Below, piece after piece: positions 6,385 to 39,905 of a DNA stretch of 64,000 nt. Each line of letters starts with the position of its first letter. Within the stretch, counting starts at the first letter, position 1. This DNA comes from a bacterium. Its GTDB lineage: Bacteria > UBP6 > UBA1177. The stretch spans positions 1 through 64,000 of the forward strand of contig JAEESW010000011.1 of assembly GCA_016290135.1 (NCBI GenBank), given 5' to 3'. A program made the translations under genes and the position numbers. Below the pieces are notes generated by a model. That model was not told the origin of the DNA, did not search any database, and saw only the letters and a program-made list of their open reading frames with translations.

Positions 6385-6999
6385 ATGAACGAAACATATA
6401 TCATTGAAGCTGTCGGTTATGTCGGATCGGCGCTGGTCCTAATTTCAATGCTGATGACTTCCGTAGCGAAGCTGCGGCTGATCAATACTTTCGGAAGCCT
6501 GATCTTCACCGGTTACGCGCTTGCGATCCAGTCTTATCCGACTGCCGCGATGAATTTCAGCCTAGCACTCATCAACATTTACAATCTGGCGAAACTCCTC
6601 AAAAACAAGAAGGAATATTCGATAGTTACACTCCAGCCCGATGATGCGTTCATCACTTATTTCCTGGATTCGTATATTGCCGACATCAGGAAATTTTTTC
6701 CGGATTTTGTCAAGCCGGAAGAGTGCGACTGCGCATATCTGGTCTGCCGCGGCACCGAGGCAGCAGGGATACTTCTCGGGAAAAATGCAGGCTCTTCGAT
6801 CGATGTGACAATCGACTACACGACACCGGTCTACCGCGACTGTTCGGTGGGAAAATATCTTTACAACTATCTTGCTTCGCAGGATTTCAGCGGACTTTTC
6901 ACCGAAAATGTCTCTGAAAACCACAGGCCGTATCTTGAAAAAATGGGATTCGTCAGGGAAGGCGGGCGCTTCGTCAAAAAATTACGGGTGCCGGCGTGA
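6385..6999 (+). CDS. YgjV-like membrane domain fused to a GNAT-like acetyltransferase domain
   Basis: 204 residues; the AGGAGG at 6376-6381 fixes the start. Residues 1-75 hold about three membrane helices with the YgjV-family feel (VGYVGSALVLISMLMTSVAK, LRLINTFGSLIFTGYALAIQ). Residues 80-204 look like a compact GNAT fold: after YRDCSVGKYLYNYLA comes the typical end ENHRPYLEKMGFVREGGRFV. This suggests N-acetylation of an unknown substrate at the membrane face. Substrate and physiological role cannot be read from the sequence. It is monocistronic between the Rhs locus and the envelope operon. Confidence 0.65.
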   Translation: MNETYIIEAVGYVGSALVLISMLMTSVAKLRLINTFGSLIFTGYALAIQSYPTAAMNFSLALINIYNLAKLLKNKKEYSIVTLQPDDAFITYFLDSYIADIRKFFPDFVKPEECDCAYLVCRGTEAAGILLGKNAGSSIDVTIDYTTPVYRDCSVGKYLYNYLASQDFSGLFTENVSENHRPYLEKMGFVREGGRFVKKLRVPA

Positions 7000-7031
7000 T
7001 CCTGAAGTTCGGGGCGTGCCGCTTTACCACT

Positions 7032-7062
7032 TGATTTTTATGCGCGCTTAATATAAAAATCA
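7032..7062. promoter_or_regulatory. Perfect 10-bp inverted repeat upstream of the acyltransferase gene
   Basis: TGATTTTTAT at 7032-7041 and its exact complement ATAAAAATCA at 7053-7062 flank an 11-base loop, GCGCGCTTAAT. It lies 30 bases before the start of the next gene and after the stop of the one before. It could be a weak bidirectional terminator or an operator; no U-tract follows directly. Confidence 0.4.
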
Positions 7063-7092
7063 CGGATTTGATTTATTGACATGGAGAAACTT

Positions 7093-7989
7093 ATGTCAGA
7101 AGAAAAAGTTTTGCTTTATAAACTCCTTAAAGGCTGGGAGGATGCGCTTCCCGACGAACTTGTTCCTGCTGTGAAGGATTTTGTCGATGCCCAGCCGGAC
7201 ACTGCCGTTGCCGAATTTTTGAAGAAATACGAGGCGGCCGGAGTCGACTGGGGATACTCCGAGGGCTCAGGATTTGTCCGCAGCATAATGAAAATGGTGC
7301 TTGACGCTATGCTGAGATTCGATGTCAGAGGTGCTGAAAACATGGATGCCGCGCTTAAACTTCTTGCGGAAGGAAAGGCTGACAGGCTCGTTTTCGTCGC
7401 AAACCATGTCAGTTATGCCGATGCGAATATCTTCGCGACAGCTTTTGACAGCAACTTCGAAAAAGCCGGGCTTGCCGGAAAACTTGCAGTTATAGCCGGT
7501 CCCAAAGTTTTTTCGCACCCTGTGAGAAAATTCGCAAGCATGCACTTCGACTCTCTTCTTATCGCTCAGTCGCAGACAGTTGCCACGATGCCTGTCGCAT
7601 ACCCGATCCGCGTCATCGCGAGAGCTGCGTCGATGGTGGTCGAAGATATCAAGGCAAAAGTAAAGATGTTCCTTGTTTTTCCTGAAGGCAAAAGAAGCCG
7701 TGACGGTAGTATGGACCATTTTCTTGCCGGAGTTTACAGGATGATAGACACCGGAGAGAATGTCCTCGTTCAGCCCGTCTCGGTCTTGGGCGGCGAAAAG
7801 ATGCTCCCGATCTCCCAGGGAAAACTTCATCCTGCCGATGTGTCGATCAATGTCGGCAAGGCACAGTATGTCTCCGATATTCTTGAAGAGATCGGCGAGG
7901 TGCAAGGCGTGAAACAGGCGTTTATGGACAACCTCGGAAAAAAAGTTGCGGCTCTTCATCCCGAAGAGTTGCGCGGGGTCTACAAATAG
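7093..7989 (+). CDS. PlsC-like 1-acyl-sn-glycerol-3-phosphate acyltransferase
   Basis: 298 residues from ATG 7093, preferred over ATG 7081 because GGAG sits six bases upstream of it. The acyltransferase HX4D motif is present as NHVSYAD, and block III appears as FPEGKRSRDG. Family members transfer an acyl chain to lysophosphatidate or a related lipid at the inner membrane. There is no obvious membrane anchor, and the N-terminal ~85 residues before the catalytic domain are unassigned. First gene of a tight run with two lipoproteins, LolA and an M16 peptidase, which points to envelope lipid or lipoprotein work. The exact acceptor lipid is unknown. Confidence 0.75.
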   Translation: MSEEKVLLYKLLKGWEDALPDELVPAVKDFVDAQPDTAVAEFLKKYEAAGVDWGYSEGSGFVRSIMKMVLDAMLRFDVRGAENMDAALKLLAEGKADRLVFVANHVSYADANIFATAFDSNFEKAGLAGKLAVIAGPKVFSHPVRKFASMHFDSLLIAQSQTVATMPVAYPIRVIARAASMVVEDIKAKVKMFLVFPEGKRSRDGSMDHFLAGVYRMIDTGENVLVQPVSVLGGEKMLPISQGKLHPADVSINVGKAQYVSDILEEIGEVQGVKQAFMDNLGKKVAALHPEELRGVYK

Positions 7990-7999
7990 GGGGATTTTT

Positions 8000-9334
8000 A
8001 TGTCGAGATTTTTCCGCTTTCTGCTTCCGCTGGCTTTTGCCGCGGTGTTCATGTCCTGTGATTCGGACACGAAATACATTTATCCGCCCGAAGGTGTCGT
8101 GAACCGCATCACCGATTTCTATTTTTTTGATGACGGAAAGAGTTTTATCTATCTCAGCAGCAATATGAACCGCAGATACGATTTCGGCGAGCTGGTCCTT
8201 ATGGAGATCGACGATGCGGGCGATCTGGTCTACAAGAACTCGCTCCTTGTCCCGTCGATCGCCGGAAAAATGACAGTTTCGGCTGACGAGAAGGATGTCT
8301 ATATCACGACGCGTGACAAACACGGTGTCGTAAGAGCCAAGGTCGTCGGGAAATCCGGTTCCTACAGGCTGCAGTACGAAGAGGGGACGAAAGGAGACTA
8401 CCCCGATATCCTGAAAACGAAGAAAGAGCCGTATGCCATGACTTTGAGCGAAGATGAGTCGAAACTCATGGTCACCCACATACTCAACGGCGAACTTTCG
8501 GTCATCGACACCGAAGAGTGGAAAGTTATAAAGACATCGAAACTCAAATACGGCGTAACAGAAATACTTTACGACAAAAATTCGGGTTACTACCTCGCTT
8601 CGCACAGAAGTTCGGGCAACATTTCGCTCATCGAGGCGAAAGAGACTCTCGAAGAATTCGTCGTCGCTGTGAGAGAGCTTCCGATCGACCTTCCGACAAA
8701 GGGGTTCGACGTCCGCTCGCTCAAGCAGTCGGGTGACGGAGAGGTCTTTTACGCAGTTTTTCAGAACACCTACAACGAAGATACTTACGAATATGCTTAT
8801 GATGAGGATACCGCTCCGCAGATCGTCACTTTCAAAATCGAAGACAAGGAGCTCAAGATCGTGAAGAGTCTCACGGTCGCCGGAAATCTGGGTGAAATGG
8901 CAGTCCTGCCTTACAGCTCCGAGACTCCGGAAGAGGATGAGGAAAGTGCCGGTGACGATGCTGAAAAAGGCGATGACGGTGATGATTCTGAAGCGAACGG
9001 CTTTGTAAGAGCTGAAGAGGAAACGACGGACGACAGCGATGCGGCATCGGAAGAAAATGAGAAGACTTCAAAGCGTATCGGGGACATGATCTTTGTCTCT
9101 GTTCCGAAAGAGGAAAAGCTGCTGGTCATCGATTCCGCGAGAAACTCGATCCGCGATGAAATTTCCTACAAAGACGACAAAAAGGACTGCCATCCCTATC
9201 AGCTCTATGCAAAAAGCACAGGGAATACGACAGGCTATCTCTTTGTTTCATGTTTCCAGGACGACAGGGCGTATCTCTATTCGATAGACCTTATGTCTGA
9301 GGAGATAATTAAAAAGATCGGGGTCCTTGAATGA
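8000..9334 (+). CDS. Lipoprotein with beta-propeller-like repeats
   Basis: 444 residues from ATG 8000, with AGGGGG upstream; a longer frame from 7946 would overlap the acyltransferase and has no site. The leader SRFFRFLLPLAFAAVFMSCD ends in a lipobox-like cysteine. The mature part contains repeating strand-rich units (YLSSNMNRRYDFGELVLMEI, KMTVSADEKDVYITTRDKHG, EDESKLMVTHILNGELSVID) like the YVTN/lactonase-type propeller families. An acidic insert of about 55 residues (Glu/Asp-rich) lies near 310-365. It ends in an ATGA overlap with the next lipoprotein. A ligand or partner cannot be named. Confidence 0.65.
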   Translation: MSRFFRFLLPLAFAAVFMSCDSDTKYIYPPEGVVNRITDFYFFDDGKSFIYLSSNMNRRYDFGELVLMEIDDAGDLVYKNSLLVPSIAGKMTVSADEKDVYITTRDKHGVVRAKVVGKSGSYRLQYEEGTKGDYPDILKTKKEPYAMTLSEDESKLMVTHILNGELSVIDTEEWKVIKTSKLKYGVTEILYDKNSGYYLASHRSSGNISLIEAKETLEEFVVAVRELPIDLPTKGFDVRSLKQSGDGEVFYAVFQNTYNEDTYEYAYDEDTAPQIVTFKIEDKELKIVKSLTVAGNLGEMAVLPYSSETPEEDEESAGDDAEKGDDGDDSEANGFVRAEEETTDDSDAASEENEKTSKRIGDMIFVSVPKEEKLLVIDSARNSIRDEISYKDDKKDCHPYQLYAKSTGNTTGYLFVSCFQDDRAYLYSIDLMSEEIIKKIGVLE

Positions 9335-10986
9335 GAAATTTGCGCGGATTATTTTTGACCTTCCTGCTCCTGCTCCTTTCCGTATCCTGCAGCGACGGCG
9401 GGCCCAACTATGTTTTCGACAGTCCGGCTGCATATACGACGGTCCAGGGAACAGTGTGCAAAAACGGACGCAGTTCCTATATGGCTTTCGTGGTCGACAA
9501 TACTTTCAAATACGGCGCGAGGATAAAAAAGATCAGCGGCTGTGAAAGGAAGATCGACAAAAGTCTGAAAGACAAACGCGACAAAAAGCGCGGTATCTAT
9601 GTAGGCGGAACAGGCGTTTCGATTGACAAGATAATCTCAGACGGAGAGGCTGTAGTCGCAGTCGCTTCGACAGGCCGTGTGGCGGCAGACCACAGAAAAG
9701 ACGACAAAAAAGAGGAAATGCGTCTTCCCGACCACAAAGGAAGGATTGTTCTGAGAAAGTTCGACAACAAAGTCGAGCATGTAAAAGAATTCAACCGCAG
9801 CCTGCTTCTCGATTTCTATCCTGAGATAGTGAAGAACTTCAACAACGAAGGTTTTTTCTTTTCCGGTTCCGATTTTGCGGCCTACTACATCGGTTTTGTC
9901 GATACTGAAGGTGTCGGAAGCTGGAAAGAGACAGATTTTCCGGTCTCAGAAATTGCCGTTATCGGCAAAAAAGCCTACCTTTTCGACGATATCACAGGAA
10001 AAGTCTACACGGCTGACTCCTCTCTCGAACCTGAGGAAGCGCTTCTTCTTGACGACTACAAAGAAGGGCGCATGGCTCATCTTTACGGCGGAAAGCTCGC
10101 GTTTTTCAAAGATAACAGGCTCGAGGTGTTCGATGCCGGCCTCAACTCTTTGAACACGCTCGAAATGCCTGAGGGCTTCGATATTTCCGCAGTGAATGTT
10201 TTTCCCTACAGTAACGGCTACAAATACAGAAAATTCGAGGGAGATATGCTCACGGAAAAAGTTCAGGTCTTTAAAAAGGATATCTCCGATGAAGAAAAAG
10301 AGGCTCTTTCGGAAGAAAACATCTCTGTTTCGTCCGCATGGGAGACTATTGACGCAGAGAGCGGCGATATAGTCTGGATAGCGATGAAGAACGGCTATGT
10401 GAGAGCCTACGATTTTGCTTCGGGAAGCTGGCTGGTCGAGCCGTTTGATGCAAAGGCGACTTCGACTTACGAACTTGAAATGAGGCCTTATCTTGCCTCA
10501 AGCTACTCATCTTTCCCGAAAAACAGCGCTACGACCTATGACAATGCACCTTTCGTGGATAAGGTGGCGGTAGCGCGCGGTCTCACATCGCCGATGATAT
10601 ACAGGTTCGTCTATGAAGGTCTGGACGATGAAGGCTCGTTCACGAAAGGGACATACACAGTCACTCGCGAGACCTTCGGGCAGAAAGTGTTCGCCGGCAA
10701 TGCCACGGAGCTTGCAAGCGGTGATGACGGGGACTCTTTTTCGTTCGAAGACGACTATATAGCGGTCGTTATCAAACGCTCCGACGACAGCTTTGAGACT
10801 GAGCCCGAAACTTCATTCTATCTTTCGATCGGGCAGGGGGTCCCGTTTGTAGGATTTGCGTCGGCAGACGCGATGACAAGCATCGAAAGTCCCTCCCCGC
10901 TCAGATTTTTCGGTTTCTCGGCTCTTACACGCAGATTCGTCGAATATAACATGTTTAAAGACGAAGTTGAAAAGGTCTATAAATAG
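9331..10986 (+). CDS. Lipoprotein of unknown function, coupled to the propeller lipoprotein
   Basis: 551 residues starting in an ATGA overlap. The leader ends in LLSVSC followed by SDGG, a good lipobox. The rest is strand-rich and soluble-looking; segments such as EIAVIGKKAYLFDDITGKVY and GKLAFFKDNRLEVFDAGLNS suggest another propeller-like fold related in style to the preceding gene. No family recognised. Translational coupling implies a stoichiometric partner of the preceding lipoprotein. The LolA gene nine bases downstream could serve their sorting. Confidence 0.6.
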   Translation: MRNLRGLFLTFLLLLLSVSCSDGGPNYVFDSPAAYTTVQGTVCKNGRSSYMAFVVDNTFKYGARIKKISGCERKIDKSLKDKRDKKRGIYVGGTGVSIDKIISDGEAVVAVASTGRVAADHRKDDKKEEMRLPDHKGRIVLRKFDNKVEHVKEFNRSLLLDFYPEIVKNFNNEGFFFSGSDFAAYYIGFVDTEGVGSWKETDFPVSEIAVIGKKAYLFDDITGKVYTADSSLEPEEALLLDDYKEGRMAHLYGGKLAFFKDNRLEVFDAGLNSLNTLEMPEGFDISAVNVFPYSNGYKYRKFEGDMLTEKVQVFKKDISDEEKEALSEENISVSSAWETIDAESGDIVWIAMKNGYVRAYDFASGSWLVEPFDAKATSTYELEMRPYLASSYSSFPKNSATTYDNAPFVDKVAVARGLTSPMIYRFVYEGLDDEGSFTKGTYTVTRETFGQKVFAGNATELASGDDGDSFSFEDDYIAVVIKRSDDSFETEPETSFYLSIGQGVPFVGFASADAMTSIESPSPLRFFGFSALTRRFVEYNMFKDEVEKVYK

Positions 10987-34142: not shown

Positions 34143-35213
34143 TTATACCGACGGAGTTGTGAAAACTCTCCAGAATCCCTGGTCATCCTTTTCTATGTAT
34201 CCGTTTTTCTGAAGCGACTGCAGCATTTTCTGCAGGGCAGAGCGGTTTATTCCGATTTCATTCTGAAGATATGACAAGGTCGCCTTCGGTTCGATCTGGA
34301 GCTCGCGGAGGATCTTCCCGTAAGTCGGAGTCCTGAAAGCTATGCGCTCTCCGTCATACCACCAGACATTTTCGTCTTTTTCAGTCACAAAAAGGATGTC
34401 GTTTTCCACTTCGTGCGTTATCAGTTCGACCATGTATTTGTGAAACGGGCGGATATTTTTCAAAGAGGCTTTTACTCCGTCTGACGGTATCGGACCGACT
34501 ATCAGATCGGCGCTGTGCAGCGCGTCAAGATACTCCTTTTTCAGGCGGCTGCGCACAACTATCATGGGCAGACCGTGCCTTGAAAGAATATAGTTGACCA
34601 AGAGCCTTGCGATACGCCCGTTACCGTCCTCAAACGGATGAATGCGGATAAACCTGTAATGAAATAGAACCGCTATATCTACAGGCGAAAACAAATCATC
34701 CTGCTCAGCCTTATTGTACCAGTCCACAAGATCAGCCATAAATGCCGGAGTCTCCTCTGGAGATGCATAATCAAAACGCTCGCCGTAACGGGTTATGACG
34801 CTGTTCGGACGAGTCTTGTACTGCCCGGCGTGGACCGTGTAACCGACCTGCATCCCGTCAGGAAGCGTGCGCGAAACATCATAATCCTCGCGTATCAAAG
34901 TTTTGTGCAGAGCCCTGATAAAATTCTGAGTAAGCGGCTGCTGTGCTTCCGCAGCCTCATTCAGCATCATTTTCAAACCGAGATCACTTGCCTTCATCTC
35001 CTCGTATTCACGAAAATCTGCCACGCCGATCACTTTGTCAAAAAGCAGGAGAAGTTCCGTCTGCCCGTAAGTGAGAGTATTTCCTTCAATGTGGTTGCTA
35101 TTGTAGTTGAAATCGACGGTGAAACGACGGCTCAACCTCCCCTTGTCGATTTCAGAAAGCGGCTGCAGCCGCTCCCATCTTTCCAATGCGCTCAAAAGTT
35201 TTTTGTTTTCCAT
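34143..35213 (-). CDS. Fic-family protein with C-terminal winged helix
   Basis: 356 residues from ATG 35213 (GGAGG six bases upstream; a longer frame to 35285 runs through the operator). The Fic motif HPFEDGNGRIARLL is complete, and an inhibitory-type alpha-helix motif is suggested by FNYNSNHIEGNTLTYGQ (S/TxxxE(G)N) near the N-terminus. The C-terminus (EIGINRSALQKMLQSLQKNG) is a helix-turn-helix, as in Fic proteins that regulate themselves. Fic enzymes AMPylate target proteins. Two palindromic sites upstream are likely its own operators. Confidence 0.9.
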   Translation of the reverse strand: MENKKLLSALERWERLQPLSEIDKGRLSRRFTVDFNYNSNHIEGNTLTYGQTELLLLFDKVIGVADFREYEEMKASDLGLKMMLNEAAEAQQPLTQNFIRALHKTLIREDYDVSRTLPDGMQVGYTVHAGQYKTRPNSVITRYGERFDYASPEETPAFMADLVDWYNKAEQDDLFSPVDIAVLFHYRFIRIHPFEDGNGRIARLLVNYILSRHGLPMIVVRSRLKKEYLDALHSADLIVGPIPSDGVKASLKNIRPFHKYMVELITHEVENDILFVTEKDENVWWYDGERIAFRTPTYGKILRELQIEPKATLSYLQNEIGINRSALQKMLQSLQKNGYIEKDDQGFWRVFTTPSV

Positions 35214-35238
35214 GAAAGCCTCCGAACCACCAATTTCG

Positions 35239-35254
35239 GTGGTAACATTACCAC
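35239..35254. promoter_or_regulatory. Palindromic operator site 1 of the Fic gene
   Basis: GTGGTAACATTACCAC, a perfect 16-base palindrome, 26 bases before the Fic start. Shares its half-site with site 2. Lies where RNA polymerase should bind for the minus-strand gene. Confidence 0.65.
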
Positions 35255-35312
35255 TTAAAATACCATTTTTTTGGTTAATACGCAAGATTTTTTGTTAAAA
35301 ACCACTCAATAA

Positions 35313-35330: not shown

Positions 35331-35842
35331 AAAAGCCCCTATTTTTCACTTTGGTGAGAAATCTTAAAGTAGAAACATATGCCAGAAACGGCGAAAAAAT
35401 GTGTTCAGATAACAGAAATTTGCCAGAAAACCGGTCAGCCGTACGCCGTTTTGTTGAAAAAACGGTACTTTTGTCATGTTTTAATATTGAAAAAACAGTA
35501 CTTTTGAGAAAAATCTGCAATAATATTCGATAGAATTCAGTTAGATCCGAAAATCGGAACTAGACTTGCAGCTGGAACCTGTTTATATGCTTCCTTTTAC
35601 GGTTGAAGATTTTTCTTAAAAACTTGTTTTTAAATACGATTTTTCTAAAATCTCCCGTTTTTTTTGATAATTTAATTTGAAGACAAAATGATGCTCAACG
35701 CAACGCAACGCAATTATCAGGACAGTGTCGCCAGCTTAAATCCAAGTCAAGGTTTTCGACCGGAAAAATTCAGATTTTTTCAATAATTATAGTCTGTTGC
35801 CAAAGGCAACATTTTTTATCATTTTATTAAAAGGAGAGAAAA
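35331..35842. other. AT-rich intergenic stretch, no supported gene
   Basis: About 510 bases between the Fic operators and the next gene. Short open frames exist on both strands (for example 35323-35520) but lack ribosome sites and lean on the repeat described separately. It also contains a short AACGC triple run at about 35697-35713. A promoter for 35843 should lie in the last 100 bases; I see no good match. Confidence 0.5.
35454..35506. repeat. Two 20-base near-identical direct repeats
   Basis: TTGAAAAAACGGTACTTTTG at 35454-35473 and TTGAAAAAACAGTACTTTTG at 35487-35506 differ at one base and begin 33 bases apart. GTAC at the centre makes each weakly palindromic. Could be binding sites or remains of an insertion. 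Confidence 0.7.
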
Positions 35843-36400
35843 ATGAGAGAAGAAGAATTTACTGCCAAACTTGTGTCAACTATCAATGCAAAATTTGCTG
35901 AAATTATGGCGGCAAAACCGGCTGACGCCAAATTTCTTAACTATCTTGATGCATTAGCCATTTCGCAAAGTGTAAGAAATGTTTTTATCAACACCAAACT
36001 TAATTATGTTCCGAATTTGATTGAAGCCGTATTGAATATGTGTGAAGCCGTCATGTCTCCTACTAAAACTGAGAAAATAGAAAAAATAAAGAAAGCCGGA
36101 GGACTTTTGGGCGGTACCACCGGAATTGCAATGATAATCGCTGGCATTGCCACTGCTTTTGGCTGGGGAGCAGGTGTAATTGCCGCTATCACGGCATTTT
36201 TCGTAGGAGTATCTCTTGTCCCCGTAATAGGTTGGATAGTAGGCGGAGTCAGCTTGGCAGTTATTGCCGGATATTTTGCTTTTTCCGGTAGCGATCCGAT
36301 AAAAAACACAGAAAGCTATATGAATGCACTGAGAGATGGTGTAACAAAAGCTATGCCGGAAGTTTGGAAAGAATTTGGGGACGAGTTGAGCAATGATTGA
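35843..36400 (+). CDS. Unrecognised membrane protein, first gene of a two-gene module
   Basis: 185 residues, AGGAGAG before the ATG. Residues 1-65 are soluble helical; about 85-150 form two to three Gly-rich membrane helices (GGLLGGTTGIAMIIAGIATA, VSLVPVIGWIVGGVSLAVIA), and a short hydrophilic tail follows. No signal peptide. Gly-zipper-like helices recall proteins that insert into membranes, such as bacteriocins or pore formers, but nothing specific is recognised. Overlaps the next gene by eight bases and shares its AT-rich composition, unlike flanking housekeeping genes. Confidence 0.7.
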   Translation: MREEEFTAKLVSTINAKFAEIMAAKPADAKFLNYLDALAISQSVRNVFINTKLNYVPNLIEAVLNMCEAVMSPTKTEKIEKIKKAGGLLGGTTGIAMIIAGIATAFGWGAGVIAAITAFFVGVSLVPVIGWIVGGVSLAVIAGYFAFSGSDPIKNTESYMNALRDGVTKAMPEVWKEFGDELSND

Positions 36401-37523
36401 TCATCTTCCTTTAAAGATTAGCGTCTTAACCGGAAATGTCGCTTACGGTTTTATTCCTGCAGAAACATTGCGTCACAATGTAGATAAACTTTTTCCGTAT
36501 CTTTCAAAATGTGAAATTGCAGATAGTGCATCCGGTTATCTCCACAGATGGCGCGAAGGACACGATTTATTGGTTGATATTCCCTCAACATTAGCGGATA
36601 AAGGATTCGGAGAGGCTACCCATCATGCCGGGCACATACTATTTACTGATTTTCCGACAAAAGCTGGAATTCCAATCCCCGGATTTTCACAATCCGGATT
36701 GGGAGAAATACTTAAAAATTTCAATATTTCGCCAGGTTGGATGAATTTGTCTCTTTTCGATACTGGAATCGGTTTCTTTTGTGTTGCTGAAGGTTGTGGA
36801 GATTTATACTCCGCCATAGCAGGAAATTTGGAGATGTCTTTTGAAACATTCGTTGACACTTTCGGGGAAGGCGCATTAGAAATTGCCTTAGCTGTTTCTG
36901 CACAAAATCCTATATTGCTTGCAGGAGGTATTGAAAATATCATAGCTGGTTTAGTTTCGGCATGGAAAACTTATACTTACTATGTTGATCCAGTTGATTT
37001 TTTCGGTGGAGCCGCAGGAGGTGCCATTGTTGGAGGACTTCTTACGCTTCTATTTTCAAAAGAGCCGACATTGCAAGGAAAGATGATTCAAAGTCTTAAA
37101 AACGCATCAAAATCAGCAGCGTTAGGCGGATTATTTACAGTCAAATCCTTCTTCGGATACGGAGCCCTGCTCGGAATGTTAGCGTATCAACTTGGAAATA
37201 TTGCCGCAAAAAAGGATTGTGAGAAAATTGCAAAAACCTACTCTATTGATGTGAAATCATTTGACTGTTTTCTTAAAACTGTTTGCGAAGGAAATCAAAA
37301 ATTTATGGATTTCTGGAACTCAAGTTTCAGCTGCAAAACTTTTGATGATTCGGCAGAAAATCTGAAGCTGAACAACAAACCACAAATATATTTTGAAAAC
37401 TGTGATTTTCTGTTTGATGATTCGACTACGGAAGTCTTCGACTCTTCCTCAAAAACTTTGGATGATTCCTCAACAGAACTCTTCGACACATCTGCAAAAA
37501 CTTTTGACGATTCGGACAATTAA
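36393..37523 (+). CDS. Unrecognised protein with hydrophobic Gly-rich core and FDDS-repeat tail, second gene of the module
   Basis: 376 residues, start overlapping the previous gene. Residues 1-160 are soluble with several conserved-looking patches (REGHDLLVDIPSTLADKGFG, THHAGHILFTDFPTKAGIPI). Residues 175-270 hold hydrophobic Gly/Ala-rich stretches (AAGGAIVGGLLTLLF, FGYGALLGMLAYQLGNIAAK). The last 45 residues are imperfect repeats around FDDSS(T/K) (DDSTTEVFDSSSKTLDDSST). The repeat tail and translational coupling suggest that both proteins act in one complex. I cannot name a family. Confidence 0.7.
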   Translation: MIDHLPLKISVLTGNVAYGFIPAETLRHNVDKLFPYLSKCEIADSASGYLHRWREGHDLLVDIPSTLADKGFGEATHHAGHILFTDFPTKAGIPIPGFSQSGLGEILKNFNISPGWMNLSLFDTGIGFFCVAEGCGDLYSAIAGNLEMSFETFVDTFGEGALEIALAVSAQNPILLAGGIENIIAGLVSAWKTYTYYVDPVDFFGGAAGGAIVGGLLTLLFSKEPTLQGKMIQSLKNASKSAALGGLFTVKSFFGYGALLGMLAYQLGNIAAKKDCEKIAKTYSIDVKSFDCFLKTVCEGNQKFMDFWNSSFSCKTFDDSAENLKLNNKPQIYFENCDFLFDDSTTEVFDSSSKTLDDSSTELFDTSAKTFDDSDN

Positions 37524-37659: not shown

Positions 37660-37938
37660 TCAGAACAAATCGCTGTGAGTTCCTGTTCGGTACAAGGACA
37701 AAACAAGAACATCTTCCGAGATTTTATAAACCAAAAGCCAGTCAGGTTCGATATGGCATTCGCGATAACCGCTGTATATCTTGCCCTTTAAAGCATGATC
37801 CGAGTATTTTTGAGGCAGTTTTTCACCATCCGCAAGCAAAGTTATTGCTGTTTTGAGTTTTGAAATGTCACAGCCGCGCTTTACGGCCTGTTTATAATCC
37901 TTTTTAAATTGGGTAGTTATCTGTATCGAGTATTTCAT
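37660..37938 (-). CDS. RelE/YafQ-type mRNA interferase toxin
   Basis: 92 residues. FKKDYKQAVKRGCDISKLKT, then ALKGKIYSGYRECHIEPDWLLVYK and the end LYRTGTHSDLF match YafQ: the conserved His/Asp/Tyr-Arg surface and the C-terminal GTHSDLF. YafQ cuts mRNA on the ribosome. The start codon shares one base with the antitoxin stop, the typical TA arrangement. Confidence 0.9.
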   Translation of the reverse strand: MKYSIQITTQFKKDYKQAVKRGCDISKLKTAITLLADGEKLPQKYSDHALKGKIYSGYRECHIEPDWLLVYKISEDVLVLSLYRTGTHSDLF

Positions 37939-38219
37939 TAAGAATCAAGTTCCTCGAAAAGCTCGTCCACGCTTGAGAATTTTTTTGCATTAGGATCATT
38001 GATCATGCTGTCTCCCTCTTTCAATGCGGCTATTGTAACGGCATTCGGGTTTTCGATACGCACCTCGAACGGAAATCCGTGATGATATATTGCCTGCCTT
38101 AAAAAAACATTGATCGCGGTCGTCATATCCATTCCAAGAGCAGCAAAAAGCTGCTGAGCCTCCTGTTTTACCGCTTTGTTCATTCTGATAGTCATACTCG
38201 TGTCCGTGTTTGCCGCCAT
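37938..38219 (-). CDS. RelB/DinJ-type antitoxin
   Basis: 93 residues from ATG 38219, chosen for GGAGG nine bases upstream. The N-terminal ribbon-helix-helix (SMTIRMNKAVKQEAQQLFAA, GMDMTTAINVFLRQAIYHHG) binds DNA, and the C-terminal KKFSSVDELFEELD wraps the toxin. It should repress its own promoter directly upstream. Confidence 0.92.
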   Translation of the reverse strand: MAANTDTSMTIRMNKAVKQEAQQLFAALGMDMTTAINVFLRQAIYHHGFPFEVRIENPNAVTIAALKEGDSMINDPNAKKFSSVDELFEELDS

Positions 38220-38254
38220 AATTATTAACCTCCAAACCAACCAAAACAGATAAA

Positions 38255-38306: not shown

Positions 38307-39905
38307 TCAGCTGTACATCATCGCGAGATCGCGCAGTCTTTCGGCGATCTTGTCGATCGGAGTGACTGTTTTGTCGGTCGTGGCGAAGAATGTGCCCCAG
38401 CCGGCTGCCGATTTCAGGCCTTTGCTGTAGAATTTGCGGATAAAGGGGTCGTTTTTTTCCACGAACATCCGGATGTCGTGCTCGGTGAAGGGGAAGACGA
38501 TGTCCATTCCGACGCTTTCGCCGAGATATTTTTTCATGACGAGGATGCGCGAATTGAGGTCTTTGTTGGAAACATGCGAGCTTTTCGCCTCGAGAATGTG
38601 GAGGTAGCCGTTTTTGAAGACGACGAGAGTGTCGATTTCAATGAGCGAACTTGCCTTACCGCTCAGTTTCACGTTCTGGAAAACCGATGCGATCGACTCT
38701 TTGAGGAGCGGATACTTCTCCATCGCGCGGCACACGGCGTAACTAATGATTTTTTCAAAGATCACGGATATTTGCGAGCGAGTGTTGAGAGTGCTTTCGC
38801 GCTCGATTTCTTTCACATATTTCTGCTTGAAGCGGTTGAAAACGGCTGATGTCACATCCATGCTTTTGACATCGGCGAGAGAGGTCGTTTTTTCAGAAAT
38901 TTTGGAAAAAAGAACGTCTAAAAAGTGCTGGACATCGCTTCTGAGGTCGGCTTTGTCGACTTCTCCGGCAAGCGGAAGGATCTTTCTGATGACCGCGTCC
39001 GGCATTTCAGCGTTGAATTTTTTCTGGCAGCCTGCAAGAGTCGTCCTGAAATCAAAGGAATCGGAGAAAGTCTGAAGTTCTCTTCTGCGGCTCATTTCGT
39101 TAAAGAAATCGGTGAGTTTTACCTTTATTTCGTTTTTTGCCGCATTGATTTCTGGGCGCAGGTGAGGCATTACACCGAAGATCCTCTGCAAAAACTTGTC
39201 GATCTGCTCTTCGCGGAAATTCTTCACCATAAAATCGTGAAGTTCCCCTTTGAGGTCGATGATCGTTTTCATGTTGTCGTAGGACGAGAAGAAGGCCCGC
39301 AGATTCATTGAGTTGCAGAGATTGGTGTAAAGCTCCTCAAACTGATCGGCGTTTTCCGCGAAATAATTCGTTTTGCCGTCATAAATCGTAAGAAAATCGG
39401 TAAGTTCCGCTCCGTAAAGGGTGAGACGCTCCTTCAGGTGCCAGTCGATCGAAACCGAGGATTTGTATTCGCGGAAAGACTGCTCTTTTATCGCGATCTT
39501 ATTGATCTGGCGCGTATCGAGATCGAAATATACGAGGAAAAAATCGAGATCCTGCTTTTCGGAAAAACGCTTGAGATACTCAGCGAAAACGATCCTGTGG
39601 ATCCCTTTTCCGCAGGAGGCGTCGCAGTAGATCTCGGTGATTCCGTATTCGTCGAAAACGCTTCTGACATGCCTTTTTAGCATCTCGATGATTTCGCCAA
39701 GATTCATATTTTTCTCAATGAAAACATTGATATACTTGATGTCTTCGCCGTCAGCGCGTTTCACTAAAACCGGAATATTTTTGTGCCAGTCGTTTTCCTG
39801 CGCCATCACGGTCGAGACAAAAATTATGACATCGGGAGCGGCTTCACGGATGAGAGATGCCTGAACGACAGTCTGACGCGAAAGGATCGTTACGAGAAGT
39901 TTCAT
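38307..39905 (-). CDS. CARF-domain, PD-(D/E)XK nuclease-like protein (Card1/Can2/DUF1887 type)
   Basis: 532 residues, overlapping nfo by one base (TAATG). Residues 1-150 look like a CARF Rossmann domain: [20 protein letters not shown], then PDVIIFVST, and later IYCDASCGKGIHRIVF. The C-terminal region (about 415-450) has EIDTLVVFKNGYLHILEAKS, which matches the D...E.K pattern of PD-(D/E)XK nucleases in DUF1887 proteins. In type III CRISPR systems such enzymes are switched on by cyclic oligoadenylate. Longer than usual, with a ~200-residue helical middle. No CRISPR or cas gene is visible in the window. Confidence 0.6.
   Translation of the reverse strand: MKLLVTILSRQTVVQASLIREAAPDVIIFVSTVMAQENDWHKNIPVLVKRADGEDIKYINVFIEKNMNLGEIIEMLKRHVRSVFDEYGITEIYCDASCGKGIHRIVFAEYLKRFSEKQDLDFFLVYFDLDTRQINKIAIKEQSFREYKSSVSIDWHLKERLTLYGAELTDFLTIYDGKTNYFAENADQFEELYTNLCNSMNLRAFFSSYDNMKTIIDLKGELHDFMVKNFREEQIDKFLQRIFGVMPHLRPEINAAKNEIKVKLTDFFNEMSRRRELQTFSDSFDFRTTLAGCQKKFNAEMPDAVIRKILPLAGEVDKADLRSDVQHFLDVLFSKISEKTTSLADVKSMDVTSAVFNRFKQKYVKEIERESTLNTRSQISVIFEKIISYAVCRAMEKYPLLKESIASVFQNVKLSGKASSLIEIDTLVVFKNGYLHILEAKSSHVSNKDLNSRILVMKKYLGESVGMDIVFPFTEHDIRMFVEKNDPFIRKFYSKGLKSAAGWGTFFATTDKTVTPIDKIAERLRDLAMMYS

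Follow-up and report, generated by a model that had tools for sequence, protein, structure and literature searches.

A pair of overlapping genes in a 64,000-nt stretch of bacterial DNA (hereafter the window) encodes two linked protein families that have no counterpart in the searched libraries and are passed among at least five bacterial phyla, with the gut genus Akkermansia among the hosts. The pair is probably a previously undescribed membrane-based immune module, because its genes travel together, are rare across these phyla, and often lie beside anti-virus genes or mobile elements. We give a probability of roughly 0.5 to the reading that it is a two-gene mobile module of defence islands acting as a membrane effector, directed against phages or other elements. 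The two genes are conserved as a pair and under purifying selection, have spread sporadically and horizontally, and have mobile and defence genes as neighbours.

An overlapping pair of low-G+C genes in an accessory region

A preliminary description of this DNA had placed the two genes between a Fic gene and a toxin-antitoxin pair, with a CARF nuclease nearby, an arrangement that is borne out by the features of the region:

34143–35285, minus strand: Fic-domain protein with a C-terminal winged helix (PADLOC PDC-S04/SoFic)
35795–35811, plus strand: terminator-like hairpin followed by a T run, ~30 nt 5′ of the gene 1 start (consensus match only)
35843–36400, plus strand: gene 1 (185 aa)
36095–36292, plus strand: gene 1 hydrophobic region, residues 85–150, with two to three transmembrane (TM) passes predicted by a Kyte-Doolittle scan
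36393–37523, plus strand: gene 2 (376 aa)
36471–36704, plus strand: conserved head of gene 2, residues 27–104, with 12 of the 14 invariant D/E/H/K/R/N/S/T residues across 18 homologues
36753–37238, plus strand: Gly/Ala-rich long-helix region of gene 2, approximately residues 121–282 (AlphaFold2 model, pLDDT about 64–84 here)
37329–37520, plus strand: repetitive C-terminal tail of gene 2 (FDDS)
37660–38240, minus strand: YafQ-type toxin and RelB/DinJ-type antitoxin pair
38307–39905, minus strand: CARF-PD(D/E)XK, Card1-like protein of 532 aa (PADLOC CARF4--CARF_PDDEXK, E = 7e-9)

Genes 1 and 2 lie on the same strand and overlap by 8 nt, and the G+C content of their stretch is 37–41%, against 45–51% for most of the surrounding sequence. 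An AGGAG-type ribosome site (AAAGGAGAG) precedes the first ATG of gene 1, and the hairpin further upstream is possibly the end of an upstream transcript or an attenuator. The Card1-like protein also matches the Pfam CARF model (E = 4.5e-4). An operator-like direct repeat (TTGAAAAAACNGTACTTTTG, 33 nt spacing) is found at positions 35454–35506, in the intergenic region upstream of the Fic gene.

Recovery and distribution of the family

Whole-protein searches with gene 1 and gene 2 uncovered no family members in plasmids, phages, viral contigs, or 386 related genomes. Among these relatives, 0/386 carry the module beyond chance-level matches, and four weak matches (E 0.003–0.01, 29–40% over 49–85 aa) were taken as chance. 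In G003, a genome of the same genus as the window genome and without gene 2, a 30 aa stretch (G003:C1:18511–18600; L004 6512–6601) is 53% identical to the gene 1 C-terminus (E = 3e-4); it is only a hint of a decayed gene 1 remnant, since the gene 1 profile search did not recover it.

The family was entered through a hand-chosen gene 2 motif, FPTKxGIPxPG, searched as a degenerate DNA pattern, which matched two IMG/VR contigs that each encode both genes (41–46% identity). An alignment of these pairs, followed by a search of 85,000 species genomes, gave 11 loci from Draconibacterium-like MAGs (two near-identical), a beta-proteobacterium, Rhodocyclaceae, Aliivibrio, Desulfocapsaceae, Geobacteraceae, three Akkermansia, and one Lentisphaeria, and five further loci were obtained from the genus and family of the Akkermansia match. 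Motif search and then profile searches yielded 18 loci beyond the window (two near-identical), which belong to Pseudomonadota, Thermodesulfobacteriota, Bacteroidota, Verrucomicrobiota (Akkermansia), and Lentisphaerota, together with the two IMG/VR contigs. Locus counts are lower bounds, because the genome scan demanded near-exact peptide patterns, and host assignments can be wrong, because most loci come from MAGs.

The genes had been described as a two-gene module, and all loci retain both in the same order, gene 1 immediately preceding gene 2 (19/19, window included). Contig ends truncate the locus in L020 and L023, two gene 1 copies are present in L023 and in L024, and an IS66 element (transposase E = 1e-90) splits gene 1 in L019. 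In the latter (6597–9893), the zinc-ribbon N-terminal part of gene 1 (6597–6848) is followed by the IS66 transposase (6884–8494) and by the remaining gene 1 from ~9258, with a WYL gene just upstream of the split gene.

According to the preliminary description, an absence of homologues together with no coding-type substitution pattern would have spoken against the module. Homologous pairs occur in 18 other loci, and comparison of the L057/L058 pair gives dN/dS values of 0.11 for gene 1 and 0.15 for gene 2; both are therefore genuine, conserved coding genes, and both are under purifying selection.

The module is rare and sporadic in at least five bacterial phyla. It was found in 8/76 genomes of the genus Akkermansia and in 7/244 of the family of the Akkermansia match, in 1/11 genomes around the Draconibacterium match, in 1/137, 1/250, and 1/93 around other matches, and in 1/28 of the window's phylum, this one being the window's own genome. 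Gene 1 and gene 2 distances correlate (r = 0.83), and their trees divide the family similarly and intermix host phyla. In both trees the window falls between an Akkermansia clade and one of proteobacterial and Bacteroidota members, although the gene 2 tree supports this only weakly. This sporadic distribution and the phylum-mixed trees are what an accessory module spreading horizontally would produce.

Architecture of the two proteins

Gene 1 is strongly hydrophobic and has an N-terminal helical segment, a Gly-rich hydrophobic transmembrane region, and a C-terminal amphipathic segment. The hydrophobic region (window residues 85–150) is found in all gene 1 members and gives the protein its membrane character. 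Both proteins had been called membrane-inserting, which is clear for gene 1 but not for gene 2, whose TM-like hydrophobicity is marginal or absent across the family by the Kyte-Doolittle threshold; gene 2 is therefore a Gly-rich and perhaps amphitropic protein. The window encodes a minimal gene 1, without the N-terminal zinc ribbon/EF-hand-like segment of mainly proteobacterial homologues. Among the 13–14 homologues scanned, zinc-ribbon and EF-hand segments were matched in the N-terminal extension of some.

Gene 2 comprises a His/Asp-rich conserved head, a Gly-rich helical middle, and a repetitive tail. Across 18 homologues it contains 31 invariant columns, and the invariant polar or charged residues cluster in the head (D31, D44, H51, R52, H57, D58, D62, H81, T85, D86, T89, and S99), with 12 in residues 27–104 vs. 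2 elsewhere (Fisher p about 1e-7). This clustering, which includes the motifs HRx4HDx3D (51–62) and GHx3TDFPT (80–89), suggests that the head resembles an active or metal site. A THHAGH histidine patch had looked conserved; its last histidine (H81) is invariant, but its other residues are not. The middle region (approximately residues 121–282) has zero invariant charged residues. In eight clade A homologues from other phyla, the tail is a strict 7-residue hydrophobic (mostly Leu) repeat (p ≤ 0.005 each, by shuffling). The FDDS tail of the window, described earlier as a repeat, is indeed repetitive, with a spacing of 7–8 residues, but its period 7 is not significant while period 8 gives p = 0.012. 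It appears to be a divergent counterpart of the clade A leucine-heptad tail and so a divergent form of a family-wide feature.

The earlier statement that the proteins belong to no known family stands against Pfam, NCBIfam, PHROGs, PADLOC-DB, and the PDB. Gene 1 and gene 2 had only sub-threshold matches in these libraries, scans of 13–14 homologues of each gene returned no known family (zinc-ribbon/EF-hand of some gene 1 members aside), and profiles of both families gave nothing significant against the PDB. Among core proteins of PADLOC-DB 2.0.0, a 2023 release, so that newer systems may include the pair, gene 2 had no match at E ≤ 10 and gene 1 matched only LeoBC (E = 0.08). An Rfam search returned nothing credible, and no description of the pair was found in the open-access literature. 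Rejected candidates include a patatin-like phospholipase (PF01734; 18.4 bits vs. a cut-off of 27.7, in the Gly-rich region only and in 1/13 members) and matches to TcdA1_RBD_3, DUF6768, Bfe1, and dynamin, all below cut-off in one or a few members only. AlphaFold2 models of gene 1 and gene 2 (built from 13 and 17 sequences) are helical and of low confidence (mean pLDDT 55 and 65, the latter over all of gene 2; pTM 0.31 and 0.38). Foldseek searches of these low-confidence models against the PDB and BFVD gave nothing at E ≤ 0.001, and no structural or profile match points to an enzyme fold.

Gly/Ala-rich long helices in both proteins, along with sub-threshold matches of gene 1 members to SLATT_fungal, YLATT, and holin-type models, would also fit a membrane-perforating, non-enzymatic effector pair similar to two-TM effectors, in which the His/Asp cluster would be structural or act as a ligand or metal sensor. 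We consider this unlikely: those matches are not significant (SLATT/YLATT models hit single gene 1 members only, E 0.041 and 0.064), and 12/14 invariant polar residues fall within one 78-residue segment that resembles an active or metal site. Like SLATT/YLATT 2TM effectors, gene 1 is small, has helices on either side of a hydrophobic transmembrane region, and is encoded near defence genes, but no SMODS/SLOG partner is seen.

Genomic neighbourhoods of the module

Defence genes near the module include the BREX genes for BrxL (E = 2.5e-285) and PglZ (8e-77) in L059, Avs2 (2.5e-108) and a viperin-like radical SAM protein (8e-22) in L058, a type II methyltransferase (7e-126) and an HNH protein in L057, CARF5 (4e-65) and a Csx3-like protein (4e-8) in L024, and the Card1-like CARF nuclease and the Fic gene in the window, while no clear defence gene is found nearby in L017, L018, L022, L060, or L061. 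In Akkermansia, at least 6/58 proteins flanking the module have a PADLOC match at E ≤ 1e-20, with strong defence matches in 3/6 flanks, compared with 0/75 proteins in a small control of six 16-kb regions from the same genomes. Both IMG/VR contigs (L009 and L010) carry a serine recombinase gene, and L019, L021, and L025 carry genes for tyrosine integrases. This genomic context favours the defence effector reading, and nothing in the results supports a storage or vesicle system, which had also been proposed.

The viral contigs with their serine recombinases and the integrase neighbours could alternatively point to a non-defence accessory role in mobile elements, for instance in surface exclusion, in maintaining the element, or in coping with envelope stress, and the neighbouring zinc ribbon, GYF_2, TM2, and DUF805 domains are of a generic, membrane-associated kind. 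Against this role, which we regard as highly improbable, BREX, Avs2, CARF, and R-M genes adjoin the module repeatedly, and the control regions are clean.

Loci differ in their accessory genes. In clade A, an HTH-WYL-WCX regulator adjoins the pair, next to gene 1, in L010, L015, L016, L018, and L019; the WYL gene is absent at the window and Akkermansia loci. These WYL proteins are 69–79% identical between loci whose genes 1 and 2 share 39–66%. In Akkermansia, GYF_2-domain proteins are encoded downstream in L025, L057, L058, L059, and L061, one of them as a fusion with a PrsW protease; on the upstream side, three loci encode an HTH protein and a conserved small protein (67–71 aa). At L059 (2572–7073), the GYF_2-domain proteins follow the module in tandem, one carrying the fused PrsW intramembrane protease, and a 645-aa charged, probably coiled-coil protein lies between them and gene 2.

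The pair could alternatively be a toxin-immunity or toxin-antitoxin system for addiction or inter-bacterial competition, with gene 2 as a membrane-active toxin and gene 1 as its membrane-bound immunity protein or antitoxin. The fixed order with the smaller gene first, the overlapping start, the Gly-rich hydrophobic helices, the linkage to mobile elements, and, in the window, the nearby YafQ/DinJ pair would all agree with such a system. Its probability is nevertheless low in our judgement. Searches of Pfam, NCBIfam, and PHROGs matched no secretion or delivery domain in either gene, no signal peptide or polymorphic-toxin feature was seen, L023 and L024 have two gene 1 copies, and the regulators and additional GYF_2 membrane proteins of some loci suggest a multi-part system. 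A bacteriocin-like pair, another of the earlier proposals, is conceivable, and for it too no feature for secretion or delivery was seen in these searches.

Further observations were made at individual loci. The L057 and L058 modules are near-identical (94–95% protein identity) and have a primase-bearing flank in common on one side, whereas the other flank encodes the type II methyltransferase and GHKL proteins in L057 and Avs2 and the viperin-like protein in L058. Near-identical modules with one common flank and different defence cargo opposite suggest cassette exchange. In L017 (9013–18946), the module is followed, after a few hundred bases, by recC (Exonuc_V_gamma E = 9e-98) and a gene resembling recB. 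In L009 (11826–13466), a 546-aa membrane protein with a Gly-rich C-terminal hydrophobic region and no Pfam match is encoded upstream of gene 1.

Proposed mechanism and relation to known systems

For the defence effector reading, we infer a physical complex, an enzymatic activity, a defence role, a trigger, and an outcome as follows. Gene 1 would be integral to the membrane and serve as anchor or sensor, and gene 2 would be a cytosol-facing, membrane-associating protein whose head carries a candidate metal or catalytic site (HRx4HDx3D...GHx3TDFPT) and whose Gly-rich helices may contact both gene 1 and the membrane. A signal of infection or of a foreign element would trigger the complex, which would then attack the membrane or a lipid-linked phosphoester, so that the cell or the invader is stopped. 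With their spread between phyla and their clear map of invariant residues, the two families can be tested as a candidate new defence system that acts on membranes, and the HRx4HDx3D...GHx3TDFPT motif lets annotators find more members.

More speculatively, and with rather poor odds, the pair could be a categorically new kind of immune system. Gene 2 would then be a metal-dependent enzyme with a new fold, anchored at the membrane, and upon infection it would cleave a lipid or a substrate linked to one. Gene 1 would be its dedicated membrane tether, bearing a zinc ribbon/EF-hand in one clade and, in another, joined in trans by GYF_2 or PrsW proteins.

Among known families, gene 2 has a motif-level likeness to YdjM/DUF457 membrane-bound metal-dependent hydrolases (PF04307), in which HRxxTHS...H(L/I)LLDxxTxxGVPLL compares with HRx4GHDLL...GHIL-TDFPTKAGIPIP in gene 2, the spacing being one residue off in both motifs. 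Membership is not supported: no Pfam match to this family was found in 13 gene 2 homologues at E ≤ 10, and profile-profile comparison (hhalign, small profiles) gave non-significant P values of 0.12 and 0.19, aligning only the GH..TDFPT region.

The two-gene order is shared with the Skillet-2 Lipocone system, in which an upstream membrane protein that may carry a zinc ribbon precedes a predicted membrane-associated enzyme (PMC12419801). Gene 1 is likewise an upstream membrane protein that can carry a zinc ribbon, but the described partner is single-TM. The Lipocone superfamily has a four-helix core with an active site of H2 His and H4 Asp (PMC12419801); such residues on H2–H4 were not recognised in gene 2, for which the AlphaFold2 model is poor.

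BrxR-family WYL regulators are found together with diverse phage defence systems about half of the time (PMC9122601), and the HTH-WYL-WCX protein beside the pair in five loci recalls BrxR/CapW-type WYL-regulated defence operons, although the proteins regulated here are unrelated to known systems. A sequence search of the PDB with the WYL protein returned no BrxR/CapW chain. On a Diaphorobacter plasmid (L064, 7121–9226), the gene for a WYL relative (44% identity) is followed by genes for small membrane proteins that have zinc ribbons and a TM2 domain, an analogous but unrelated set.
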